Shown: positions 30,041 through 33,961 of the stretch, piece by piece
Numbering within the stretch: the first letter of the stretch is position 1
Layout of the letters: every line of letters starts with the position of its first letter
Source: Candidatus Amoebophilus asiaticus 5a2
GTDB taxonomy: Bacteria > Bacteroidota > Bacteroidia > Cytophagales > Amoebophilaceae
Reading direction: 5' to 3'
DNA length: 64,000 nucleotides
Assembly: GCF_000020565.1 (NCBI RefSeq)
Contig: NC_010830.1
Coordinates: 1,034,001-1,098,000 of the forward strand
Notes under the pieces: model-generated
Seen by the model: the letters and a program-made list of their open reading frames with translations, nothing else
Database searches by the model: none
Told to the model about the DNA's origin: nothing
Program-made: the position numbers and the translations under genes

Positions 30041-33000
30041 ATGATAGATATCATCATTTTTATTGTTTTCTTGCTCCTTAACCTTATTATAGGAATCCTT
30101 TACCGTGGTAAGCAACAATCTTTTAAAGAATATGCCATCGGAAATAAAAACTTTTCTACAGCTGCACTAATTGCTACCCTTGTGGCTACCCAGGCTTCTG
30201 GTAGCATGTTTCTTAATGGACTAGAACAAACTTACACCAATGGGTTATACTATGTCCTGGCAAGTGTAATAGGAAGTTTCTTGGGGTTATTAATTACAGG
30301 GTACATCATAGGGCCTCGTTTAGGGAACTTTTTAAACTGCGTTTCTATAGCCGATATCATGAGCAGCGTTTATGGTAAAGGTGTACAATTGATTACTGCT
30401 ATCTGCACCGTATTAGCAACAATAGGCTACATAGCTATTCAATTTAAAGTAATATCAAGAATTTTGGAGGCCCTATTTAACTATCAAGGACCTGAAGTTA
30501 CTGTTATTGCAGCTACCATTATTATTATTTATTCAGCGTTTGGAGGCATTAAATCCGTTACTTTTACAGATGTCATTCAATTCATTACTTTTGGCACTTT
30601 GCTTCCTGTTTTAGCCTTGGCCATTTGGCACCACATTCCCAATATTAGCCAGGTAATACATACCCTCTCAGAAAATCCTAATTTTAATTTTGAACACGTG
30701 ATCAGTTGGAGTCCTCAGTTTATAGGGACCTTGGCTTTTATGTTTGTGCTTATAGTTCCTGGTTTACCTCCTGAGATATTTCAGCGTATGGCCATGGCAC
30801 GAAATACTAGTCAGATAAAACGTGCTATCGCCTATGCGGCGGTACTTTGGGTTTTAATACAACTATTTATAGTCTGGATCGCTGTTTTACTTTTGTCTGA
30901 TAATCCACATTTAACTACCAATCAAGTAGTAGGGTATATGATTAAGACATACACCTATACAGGCCTTAAAGGATTTTTAGGGGTAGGTGTTATTGCTTTG
31001 GCTATGTCCACAGCAGACAGTGCGCTAAACTCTTGTGCGGTACTAGTTGCTAATGATATTCTCCCTCCTTTAAAAATTACTAAACAAGCCTCTGTACAAG
31101 CAGCTGCTATTGCGACTTTTGCCATAGGATTTTTGGCTGTCCTATTAACGCTCTCTATTCAAAATATTTTACAAATTATATTGCTCTTTTCTAATTTCTC
31201 TTTGCCTATCCTCACTATCCCCATGTTGCTTACTATCTTCGGATTTCGTACTAGTAGGCGAGTTATTTACATAGGTATGGGGGCTGGTTTTGTTATGACT
31301 GCTCTTCTATTACTCTATTTCAAAAATGTTAATAGTTTCTTTCCCGGTATGATGGCTAACCTCATTTTCCTAGTAGGTAGCCACTATTTGCTCAAAGAAG
31401 AAGGGGGTTGGATAAAACAAGAAACAGAAGCAGGGATAGAAGCCATTACCTGGAAAGATCGATGGACTCAATTAAAGTCCTTTAACTTACCAGCTTACCT
31501 TGAAAAAAATCTGCCTGAACAAGAGTATTATTATCCTTTGCTAGCCTTTTATTCACTTATTGCTACGTATGTCTCGCTATACCATTTACCACATGTTATC
31601 GAGCAAGAGTATCTAATGCTTTATAGAACCATCCAATATTCCGTACTTGTGATTACTACAAGTTTATTGGGCTTTCAAATTTGGCCAGCTCCACTAAAAA
31701 ACAAGCGATTATTAGCATGGGTGTGGCCTTTACTTATCTTCTATACGCTCTTTTTTGTAGGAGGCATGATTGTGATTATGAGTGGATTTCAATCAAGTCA
31801 AATTTTAATATTTATGCTAAGCCTTGTGATGATTGCCTTATTTACTTATTTGCCATTAGCGCTCACATTAGCTATAGCTGGAATAATAGTTGCTGCAGGG
31901 GTATTTAAGTGGGTTACAGGCCAAGACATCTCACCTAATCAAGCAATACCTATTTCTTTTCATTTTAGTCATGGGTTGCTCTTATTTAGTAGTTTACTCA
32001 TAGCCTTATTTAGATTTAAACAAAGTAAAGAAACTCTGCAAAAGAAGAATGCTTACCTAATGACTCTTAATAACCAGTCTAAAGAAGAAATGCAGGAGGT
32101 ACTTAGATATAGGGAGGAAATACTAAAAGACCTTACTAAAGAAGATACGCTTCTTTTTGATGAGACGATGGCTGCTTATATGAGGCAGGCTATTTATCGC
32201 ATGACAGATTACATGCGACTCGATGTAAAAAGGATAAGTATGGAGGAGTTAATTTCTGAAGTTAGAGAAACTATCAAGTTAAGTGACTTTCCACAAATGC
32301 CAGACCTTTTAATCCAGAATAAATCCAAGCAACCTACTATAGAAGTAGATAGGGAAAGAATAAAGCAAATGCTTGCAAACAGTATTACATACCTTTATCA
32401 AAGTAGCAATGCCACAAGGCCCATTACAATTGCCTTAGAAGATGCCAAATTAGGCTACAGTGTTGCCCATATGCAAAACTATGCGCGGGAATCAAATGCC
32501 ATTAGGATTGTTTTAACAATAGAAAAGTCTTTACCAAAAATACAACCTATTTACAATCTCAATCACAATTCTATAGTGGACCAAGTGGCCCGTGATAGAA
32601 ACCGCCGTATGCTCTTGCAAAATGCTCGTATTGTAGATGCTCATTATGGTTATGCAGAACTAGACAGCCATATTATTACCCATTTATATGTTATTCCTGT
32701 AAACCTCCGAGAGGTACGAGGTAAGGTCATGGAAATTATTAGAGAGCCTGCTGTTGTGGATCCAGCAGAGTTAAATCACCCCCTGTCAATTAAGGTTGAA
32801 GAAGAGCTCAAAAATAAATTAACTGCTAAAGGAATAGATTTTAAACCTATAAGTAAAGCACTCAATGTAATAAAAAGATACCATGCAGGAGTAAAAAGAA
32901 AGTCAGGAGAGCCTTTCTTTACGCATCCTATTGCTGCTGCTTTAATCCTTTTAGAATACTGCCAGGACCCAGATGCAGTTATAGCAGCACTTTTGCATGA

Positions 33001-33358
33001 TACAGTGGAAGACACCGGGCTTTCTCTTATTCAGATAAAGATTATGTTTGGAGAGACAGTCGCTTTTTTAGTGCAAAAGGTGACTAATTTAGAAGAAAAT
33101 AGAAAACGCCTGATGCTTGAAGATCATGAAAACATTGCACGTCTTATCAATTATGAAGACAAGCGAGCAGCCTATGTAAAACTAGCTGATCGCATGCATA
33201 ACATGCGCACCATCAGTGGCCATTCTTCCCTTGCCAAACAGAAGCATATTGCTTCTGAAACCTTAAATTTCTTTGTACCTCTGGCAAAAAATCTAGAATT
33301 GACAACTGTATCACAGGAATTGGAAATATTAAGTCTAGAAGTACTAAAGAAAAAATAA
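30041..33358 (+). CDS. Sodium:solute symporter fused to a RelA/SpoT-type HD (ppGpp hydrolase) domain
   Basis: 1105 residues in one unbroken frame. Residues 1-450 form an SSS-family (SLC5) symporter with about 13 helices (IAIGNKNFS-like AIGNKNFSTAALIATLVATQ, GFLGVGVIALAMSTADSALN). Residues 510-660 add further hydrophobic segments, and 670-900 resemble a sensor-kinase helical and ATPase region without clear N, G1 or G2 boxes. Residues 925-1105 are a RelA/SpoT HD domain: RKSGEP (953-958), THP (His962), HDTVED (His986, Asp987, Glu990, Asp991) and LADRMHNMRT (Asp1050). All metal and catalytic positions known from SpoT hydrolases appear present; no synthetase domain follows. Predicted role: membrane transport linked to alarmone breakdown (inference). 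rnhB follows after 6 bases. Confidence 0.9.
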   Translation: MIDIIIFIVFLLLNLIIGILYRGKQQSFKEYAIGNKNFSTAALIATLVATQASGSMFLNGLEQTYTNGLYYVLASVIGSFLGLLITGYIIGPRLGNFLNCVSIADIMSSVYGKGVQLITAICTVLATIGYIAIQFKVISRILEALFNYQGPEVTVIAATIIIIYSAFGGIKSVTFTDVIQFITFGTLLPVLALAIWHHIPNISQVIHTLSENPNFNFEHVISWSPQFIGTLAFMFVLIVPGLPPEIFQRMAMARNTSQIKRAIAYAAVLWVLIQLFIVWIAVLLLSDNPHLTTNQVVGYMIKTYTYTGLKGFLGVGVIALAMSTADSALNSCAVLVANDILPPLKITKQASVQAAAIATFAIGFLAVLLTLSIQNILQIILLFSNFSLPILTIPMLLTIFGFRTSRRVIYIGMGAGFVMTALLLLYFKNVNSFFPGMMANLIFLVGSHYLLKEEGGWIKQETEAGIEAITWKDRWTQLKSFNLPAYLEKNLPEQEYYYPLLAFYSLIATYVSLYHLPHVIEQEYLMLYRTIQYSVLVITTSLLGFQIWPAPLKNKRLLAWVWPLLIFYTLFFVGGMIVIMSGFQSSQILIFMLSLVMIALFTYLPLALTLAIAGIIVAAGVFKWVTGQDISPNQAIPISFHFSHGLLLFSSLLIALFRFKQSKETLQKKNAYLMTLNNQSKEEMQEVLRYREEILKDLTKEDTLLFDETMAAYMRQAIYRMTDYMRLDVKRISMEELISEVRETIKLSDFPQMPDLLIQNKSKQPTIEVDRERIKQMLANSITYLYQSSNATRPITIALEDAKLGYSVAHMQNYARESNAIRIVLTIEKSLPKIQPIYNLNHNSIVDQVARDRNRRMLLQNARIVDAHYGYAELDSHIITHLYVIPVNLREVRGKVMEIIREPAVVDPAELNHPLSIKVEEELKNKLTAKGIDFKPISKALNVIKRYHAGVKRKSGEPFFTHPIAAALILLEYCQDPDAVIAALLHDTVEDTGLSLIQIKIMFGETVAFLVQKVTNLEENRKRLMLEDHENIARLINYEDKRAAYVKLADRMHNMRTISGHSSLAKQKHIASETLNFFVPLAKNLELTTVSQELEILSLEVLKKK

Positions 33359-33364
33359 ATAGGC

Positions 33365-33961
33365 ATGTTTATGAAGGAAACTTTCAATCAGTTAGTGGCT
33401 GGATGTGACGAAGTCGGCAGAGGATGCTTAGCAGGGCCGGTTGTAGCAGCGGCAGTAATATTACCTCTTCAATATTATTACTTTTTATTAAAGGATTCCA
33501 AAAAGCTTACCCCTAAGCAAAGAATAGAAATAGCAGCTATTATCAAAAAAGAAGCCATTGACTGGGCTATTGGCTGTGCAACACCAGAAGAAATTGACCA
33601 AGTCAATATTTCTAATGCTACTCATTTAGCCATGCATCGGGCTATTAATAAGCTGATCGTAAAGCCAGAACTGCTGCTCATAGATGGCAATAAATTTCTA
33701 CCCTATCCTAATATCGAGCATGAGTGTATTGTCAAAGGTGATAAAAAAGTTAATTCCATAGCTGCTGCGTCTATTATAGACAAAGTATACCGGGACGAGT
33801 ATATGCAGGAGCTAGCGGAAAGAGAACCTGGCTACAATTGGGAAATCAATATGGGTTATCCTACCAAAGAGCACTACCAAGCTATCTATGAGCTTGGAAT
33901 GAGCTTTCACCACCGTAAAAGCTTTAGTTTGGTCGCCAAACATTTACAGCCTAGCTTGTAG
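33365..33961 (+). CDS. rnhB: Ribonuclease HII
   Basis: 198 residues, normal length. It removes ribonucleotides and RNA from RNA:DNA hybrids. Seen: AGCDEVGRGCLAGPVVAAAV with the Asp-Glu metal pair, KDSKKLTPKQR, LLIDGNKFL with the third acid, and AAASIIDKVYRDEYM. It starts 6 bases after the symporter-HD gene, so it is translated from the same message. Confidence 0.95.
   Translation: MFMKETFNQLVAGCDEVGRGCLAGPVVAAAVILPLQYYYFLLKDSKKLTPKQRIEIAAIIKKEAIDWAIGCATPEEIDQVNISNATHLAMHRAINKLIVKPELLLIDGNKFLPYPNIEHECIVKGDKKVNSIAAASIIDKVYRDEYMQELAEREPGYNWEINMGYPTKEHYQAIYELGMSFHHRKSFSLVAKHLQPSL

Follow-up and report, generated by a model that had tools for sequence, protein, structure and literature searches.

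We propose that Candidatus Amoebophilus asiaticus 5a2 encodes a membrane-embedded (p)ppGpp hydrolase that takes its input from a symporter and supplies the hydrolysis that Rel has lost, a reading to which we give a probability of about 0.55. The gene lies in a window of 64,000 nucleotides (the whole stretch of DNA analyzed), corresponding to positions 1034001-1098000 on the single 1,884,364-base contig of the genome (described as 1.88 Mb; PMC3196728). It forms an unbroken 1105-codon frame with an ATG start at window positions 30041-33358 (+ strand; ORF reading), and the protein displays, in this order, an SSS symporter, an extra transmembrane (TM) segment, a middle region derived from a histidine kinase (HK) and a RelA/SpoT-type HD domain. 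The features, in window coordinates, are the following:

30041..31390, + strand: SSS/SLC5 sodium:solute symporter module, residues 1-450 (Pfam SSF, TIGR00813, STADS motif)
31391..32020, + strand: extra TM module, residues about 451-660 (hydropathy; tblastn to Ca. Megaera proteins; gene breaks)
32021..32755, + strand: degenerate histidine-kinase region, residues 661-905 (hhalign, PDB matches)
32834..33355, + strand: RelA/SpoT-type HD alarmone hydrolase domain, residues 932-1105 (HD_4, spoT_relA, PDB Rel, AF2)
32924..32926, + strand: His962 codon (conserved among intact fused HDs)
32996..33001, + strand: His986-Asp987 codons, HD motif (residue alignment)
33008..33013, + strand: Glu990-Asp991 codons (residue alignment)
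33188..33190, + strand: Asp1050 codon (residue alignment)
33365..33961, + strand: RNase HII gene (Pfam RNase_HII; 6 nt downstream of the fusion)

The preliminary description of this DNA had read a symporter, a kinase-like middle and a RelA/SpoT HD domain in one frame, and this is confirmed by the ORF and by the Pfam, NCBIfam and PDB matches. Indeed, SSF matches residues 31-407 (Pfam, E 3e-14), TIGR00813 (NCBIfam) also matches the SSS part, and the STADS sodium-site motif (residues 323-327) is retained in most family members, so that profile and motif together identify an SSS (SLC5) symporter. HD_4 is found at residues 940-1085 (E 3e-26) and HD at residues 960-1055 (Pfam), and the HD portion only of spoT_relA (NCBIfam) matches residues 940-1104 (E 2e-43), below the curated whole-protein cut-off because the remainder of Rel is missing from the fusion. 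The best solved relatives of the fused HD in a PDB sequence search are Rel chains (E about 1e-27). All the catalytic residues named beforehand (H962, H986-D987, E990-D991 and D1050) are in place, together with R953, N1054 and T1057; His962 corresponds to H53 of RelSeq. As for the comparison with SpoT and MESH1 that had been proposed, the AF2 model, built for the HD domain only (pLDDT 90.5), is nearer to solved Rel/SpoT hydrolase domains (TM mostly 0.76-0.84) than to MESH1 (0.61-0.69). With its 1105 aa and its SSS and kinase-like parts, the fusion is not a small alarmone hydrolase, i.e., an HD-only small protein. Note that STAC had no Pfam match in the extra TM module, and that natural gene breaks among the paralogues occur immediately before this module.

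Synthesis as two separate products was rejected, since the frame is unbroken and the paralogues have their junctions at the same places, although the genome also contains two relatives that break just after the SSS part. Chance or an assembly artefact was likewise dismissed given 10 more full-length fusions elsewhere in the genome and the same architecture in 16 of the 21 family genomes. A scan for promoters and terminators gave a result no better than chance. The downstream RNase HII gene is probably not part of the fusion system; it was considered as a functional partner and discarded, since tblastn did not find it in the fusion loci examined from the sister species. A second RNase HII gene lies near rel (C1:1521095-1521679) and a third, a fragment, follows the fusion at C1:54870-58196, which suggests that the fusion and rnhB were duplicated together.

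Sixteen HD_4 domains were identified in the Amoebophilus genome: full-length SSS-TM-kinase-like-HD proteins account for 11 (including an identical pair), kinase-HD proteins without the SSS part (641-643 aa) for 2, free-standing HDs for 2 and Rel for 1. The genes for the identical proteins (C1:224869-228192 and 239379-242702) are about 14 kb apart and reflect a recent duplication. One free-standing HD (C1:265428-265973) has lost its catalytic histidine (LLYD, H to Y) and is dead; the other (C1:890564-891154, 197 aa) is intact, and its gene is transcribed divergently from those of a pair of SSS-kinase-like proteins without HD. The fusion at C1:1126697-1130027 (L041:2698-6028) is broken by a frameshift in an A-rich run just past the SSS part, giving an SSS half of 485 aa and a TM-kinase-HD half of 641 aa with a 47-nt overlap, for which a lesion, a natural two-gene form and slippage are the candidate explanations. 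At C1:1343536-1350087 (L045), an SSS, a TM-kinase-like, a TM-kinase-HD and a second SSS protein are clustered as separate genes. Altogether, the genome has 19 SSS-bearing frames, which equals the number given in PMC8831229; that transcriptome study found 10 of the 19 symporters rising at 72-144 h and does not mention HD domains or ppGpp. The window protein shares 75% identity in SSS and 57% in HD with the copy at C1:1189051, and 47% and 75%, respectively, with the copy at C1:722840. Judged from such sequence identities, domain shuffling among the paralogues is apparent: the transporter modules diverge and the HD stays similar, i.e., many inputs and one output.

The middle region had been described as kinase-like without clear ATP-binding boxes, and this was borne out. 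No Pfam match to HisKA or HATPase_c was found there in the fusion or its 23 relatives (24 members), and in the alignment the H box, G1 and G2 are absent, while an N-box-like stretch and a terminal 'RIxxAHYG' motif are retained. The region matches the intact Megaera HK (hhalign 95.8%, E 7e-9) and, weakly, PDB kinases (E 0.007-0.3). The fusion is not a sensor kinase, as it lacks the phospho-acceptor His and a HATPase_c with G1/G2, and profile comparison indicates common descent with histidine kinases.

The proposal that an HD replaced the kinase output also found support, since Rickettsiales homologues have an intact kinase and no HD. Indeed, plasmids of Ca. Megaera (Rickettsiales) encode homologues of 929-931 aa with the same SSS and extra TM module (33-36% identity, the tblastn match spanning residues 21-775 or less of the fusion), which carry intact HisKA and HATPase_c and terminate without HD. 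Free-standing HD genes of 220-240 aa are located on the same Megaera plasmids or on sister plasmids; on one Ca. Megaera plasmid (L230:1997-3657), genes for a 204-aa (p)ppGpp synthetase, a free-standing HD and an MFS transporter are neighbours. In a class-wide sample reached via Alphaproteobacteria, SSS homologues occur in 3 of 385 genomes, none with an HD within the match; at both readable alphaproteobacterial loci a kinase H box lies in or beside the SSS protein, and at one of them SSS and TM-kinase are adjacent genes. Fusion homologues were not found in the two orders reached via Rickettsiales/Alphaproteobacteria MAGs (43 and 32 genomes, probably not Rickettsiaceae). In the HD tree, all fused HDs cluster with the Megaera free-standing HDs (100/99), separate from every Rel HD; the rickSpo character of this group is based on three Megaera free-standing HDs taken as rickSpo. 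A genome scan with the full alignment, whose patterns lay in the HD and linker regions, retained 80 loci, which were ordinary Rel-type HDs and of use as references only. These sequences suggest a transporter-kinase in which kinase activity was lost and an HD of the rickSpo type acquired.

The search for the same fusion in other intracellular bacteria, as had been recommended, was positive: long SSS-HD frames occur in 16 of the 21 genomes of the family (Amoebophilaceae), and fusions are also carried by plasmids of Cardinium from Dermatophagoides farinae, on the second of which the protein is in two frames. A NUDIX hydrolase gene lies divergent beside the fusion on both Cardinium plasmids (L225:3022-3771 and L229:2017-2766). 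One relative (G038, 1.2 Mb) contains 43 HD matches. Frames longer than 1,150 aa account for at least 20 of these and are partly arranged in tandem (C1:about 181000-209000 and 312000-377000, with a spacing of about 3.7 kb); there, the transporter parts diverge more than the HD. As an example, dS between two fusion copies is 1.39 in SSS and 0.33 in HD. Outside the family, among the matches listed for a 195-genome sample of the order, nearly all are ordinary Rel-length frames, and in 396 genomes of the phylum no fusion was found at a stricter threshold besides that of the Amoebophilus genome itself. In one genome of the same order, an ordinary Rel-strength HD match is located inside a 2330-aa open frame (G009:C1:441248-441775). 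A family genome of 2.7 Mb (G198), which may be incomplete or contaminated, has one 226-aa HD and no synthetase domain was found in it.

The fused HDs bear the marks of strong purifying selection. In nearly all of them across the family, each of the 12 catalytic or contact positions holds the expected residue or a conservative replacement (one relative, G122, is partly degraded), and mean identity among paralogues is 64% for the HD, versus 47% for SSS and 39% for the kinase-like part. In the closest pairs of the Amoebophilus genus where it was measurable, dN/dS of the fused HD is 0.04-0.12, and it reaches 0.2-0.4 in the very recent tandem copies of G038, whose low divergence makes them less informative. 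For the SSS and membrane parts the ratio is about 0.1-0.3. In many comparisons dS is close to saturation. Across the family, transporter residues are conserved and kinase motifs are lost. The fusion is real, widespread within one family and under selection.

The counterpart of this expansion is found in Rel. A genome search for a (p)ppGpp synthetase, as had been suggested, returned as the sole synthetase-domain gene over the cut-off a Rel of about 424 aa (C1:1516994-1518286), so that the objection that no alarmone is made in this organism does not apply. This Rel has no TGS/ACT domain; it retains the synthetase motifs (10 of 10 positions) and only 4 of 10 HD catalytic positions, the other 6 being changed (e.g., HDVVEDT to HDILKDK and ADRLHNMRT to AEYLRKMYK). 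In all 16 fusion-bearing genomes, the HD of the RSH synthetase scores 0-4 of 10 or, in second copies, is absent, and the synthetase positions score 9-10 of 10, except for 8 of 10 in one incomplete genome; where the Rel HDs are most decayed (one genus), alignment of this region is uncertain, although the motifs are plainly absent. The one relative that combines a full-length Rel with no fusion (G200) has an HD of 10 of 10.

The conservation order of the two Rel domains is mostly inverted in the fusion-bearing genomes. Ordinary Cytophagales pairs share 73 vs 60% and 71 vs 63% identity in HD and synthetase, respectively; in recent fusion-bearing pairs (G122/G135) the HD shares 84% (dN/dS about 0.5) and the synthetase 93-97% (about 0.1-0.2), with Amoebophilus and G147 as an exception (74 and 75%, about equal). 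In the HD tree, the Rel HDs of fusion-bearing lineages are on very long branches. Inverted constraint in Rel together with low dN/dS in the fused HDs is the signature expected if hydrolysis had shifted from Rel to the fusions, and alarmone hydrolysis appears to have moved in this way. The strongest indirect sign that the cell's hydrolase function resides in the fused HDs is the loss of the hydrolase site in the native Rel. It should be noticed that the loss of the Rel HD and the gain of the fusion are common to related genomes and may therefore be one event rather than 16 independent ones, and that, given the intact free-standing HD (C1:890564-891154) and the two kinase-HD proteins without SSS, the fusions are not provably the sole hydrolases.

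We suggest the following working scheme. The SSS symporter and the extra membrane segment would provide the input, the kinase-derived, non-catalytic middle would relay the conformational state, and the RelA/SpoT-type HD would degrade the alarmone. The soluble Rel would be left with synthesis only, since its HD site is dead and, in most genomes, it has lost the C-terminal regulatory domains, and hydrolysis would be provided in trans by the array of transporter-HD fusions. While a substrate is carried, the HD would be active and (p)ppGpp low; once uptake stops, hydrolysis would drop and the synthetase would raise (p)ppGpp. Transport state likely controls the hydrolase in this architecture, and the level of the starvation signal may follow directly from nutrient uptake. 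Tentatively, this could be extended to a family-wide rewired stringent response, in which (p)ppGpp would be set mainly by summed nutrient uptake at the membrane, with a synthetase that in most members is also devoid of its ribosome-sensing end and with hydrolysis spread over a transporter-HD array (11 in Amoebophilus and 20 or more in a relative). A nutrient-state precedent exists in Caulobacter, where EIIA-Ntr~P inhibits the SpoT hydrolase (PMC4848567). CbrA, in which the transporter and the kinase attached to it both function, is a precedent for the joining of such modules, and L-histidine had no significant effect on its activities, kinase included (PMC7096432); transport coupling should therefore not be assumed, even in known relatives.

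An intact fused HD beside a dead Rel HD would also be expected of a constitutive tethered hydrolase, whose HDs are active and replace that of Rel without transport control, the fusion being an anchor and the copy number a result of duplication and exchange. The catalytically dead kinase middle and the obvious duplication (the identical pair, the G038 tandem arrays and the plasmid copies) agree with it. However, purifying selection also acts on the SSS and membrane parts (dN/dS about 0.1-0.3), the sodium motif is kept, and the SSS-TM-HK-HD architecture is held across genera, although the existing free-standing HDs would suffice as hydrolases; we consider such an anchor unlikely, while still the strongest competitor. 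Coupling might also run in reverse, with the HD sensing the alarmone and gating the transporter, so that binding or hydrolysis of (p)ppGpp tunes uptake. The same architecture, the conserved binding residues and the presence of one conserved HD on many different transporter modules fit this idea, but the catalytic metal-binding residues are kept beyond the ligand contacts and the Rel HD is lost in the same genomes, which demands a replacement hydrolase, making it rather improbable.

That the HD cleaves another nucleotide, e.g., (p)ppApp or NADPH, seems more improbable still: NADPH hydrolysis is reported for Mesh1 (PMC9765508) and a (p)ppApp hydrolase structure is solved (7smg), yet the nearest relatives of the domain by sequence and structure are long Rel/SpoT HDs rather than Mesh1 or the (p)ppApp hydrolase, and the HD co-occurs with a synthetase that has no working HD. 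Finally, a functionless, decaying relic of a proliferated mobile gene would fit the association of rickSpo expansion with mobile elements described for Rickettsiales (PMC3153485, PMC10732058), the dead solo copy (H to Y, C1:265428) and the two split copies. Such a relic is highly implausible when full-length frames (about 1,100 codons) that keep their catalytic residues persist in several genera, dN/dS is low and symporters of the set are expressed, with a rise at 72-144 h in 10 of 19 (PMC8831229). The symporter-fed hydrolase that compensates for Rel is the reading we prefer.

The known routes from nutrient supply to (p)ppGpp run mostly through the ribosome (RelA/Rel) and through a small number of soluble partners of SpoT; with transporter and hydrolase on one chain, a single protein would make this link. 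The family, intracellular in amoebae and insects, offers natural replicates, with the same HD-bearing module on many different transporter modules, and the fusion could explain why intracellular bacteria with few regulators have many symporters. In addition, the annotated 'Rel' of these bacteria should be read as a synthetase only. What is new, within transporter-linked signalling, is the unexpected output together with the corresponding loss in Rel. In the open-access literature, we found no discussion of the function of the fusion or of the lost hydrolase of Rel, symporters and hydrolase expansion being listed separately; the review of SSS proteins PMC7918813 does not mention ppGpp and SpoT. 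The only trace of the fusion found there is an orthogroup name in PMC6232779, 'spoT ... /sodium glucose cotransporter', with 18 homologues in Amoebophilus and 2-7 in Cardinium.

Compared with known systems, the fusion resembles the SSS/SLC5 sensor kinases CbrA, CrbS and MxtR in that an N-terminal SSS is joined across the membrane to a sensory output. In contrast to them, its output is an alarmone hydrolase, it has no STAC/PAS match, its kinase motifs are lost and a response regulator is unneeded. It shares the SSS, the extra TM module and the kinase position with the Rickettsiales SLC5sbd+HK proteins (PMC5615194, and the Megaera plasmid copies), which were described as spread by lateral transfer to Amoebophilus and Cardinium (PMC5615194); these, however, end at intact HisKA/HATPase_c, and their rickSpo-type HD is a separate gene of 220-240 aa. 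The fused HDs group with free-standing Megaera HDs and in this respect are like the rickSpo[H] small alarmone hydrolases (Atkinson et al. 2011, PMC3153485), whereas most Amoebophilus copies are the C-termini of transporters. The same study assigned Amoebophilus a Rel[HS] and a rickSpo expansion, while in our analysis the HD site of this Rel is dead. The Orientia RAGE HATPase-SpoT hydrolase fusions (PMC10732058) also combine an HD with a kinase-derived piece in an intracellular bacterium, but there the HD is merged with part of a HATPase gene and no SSS part is described. As in the PTS-Ntr/SpoT system of Caulobacter (PMC4848567), nutrient state would act on the hydrolase side of the (p)ppGpp balance, through a soluble phosphotransfer partner in Caulobacter and through a fused transporter in Amoebophilus.
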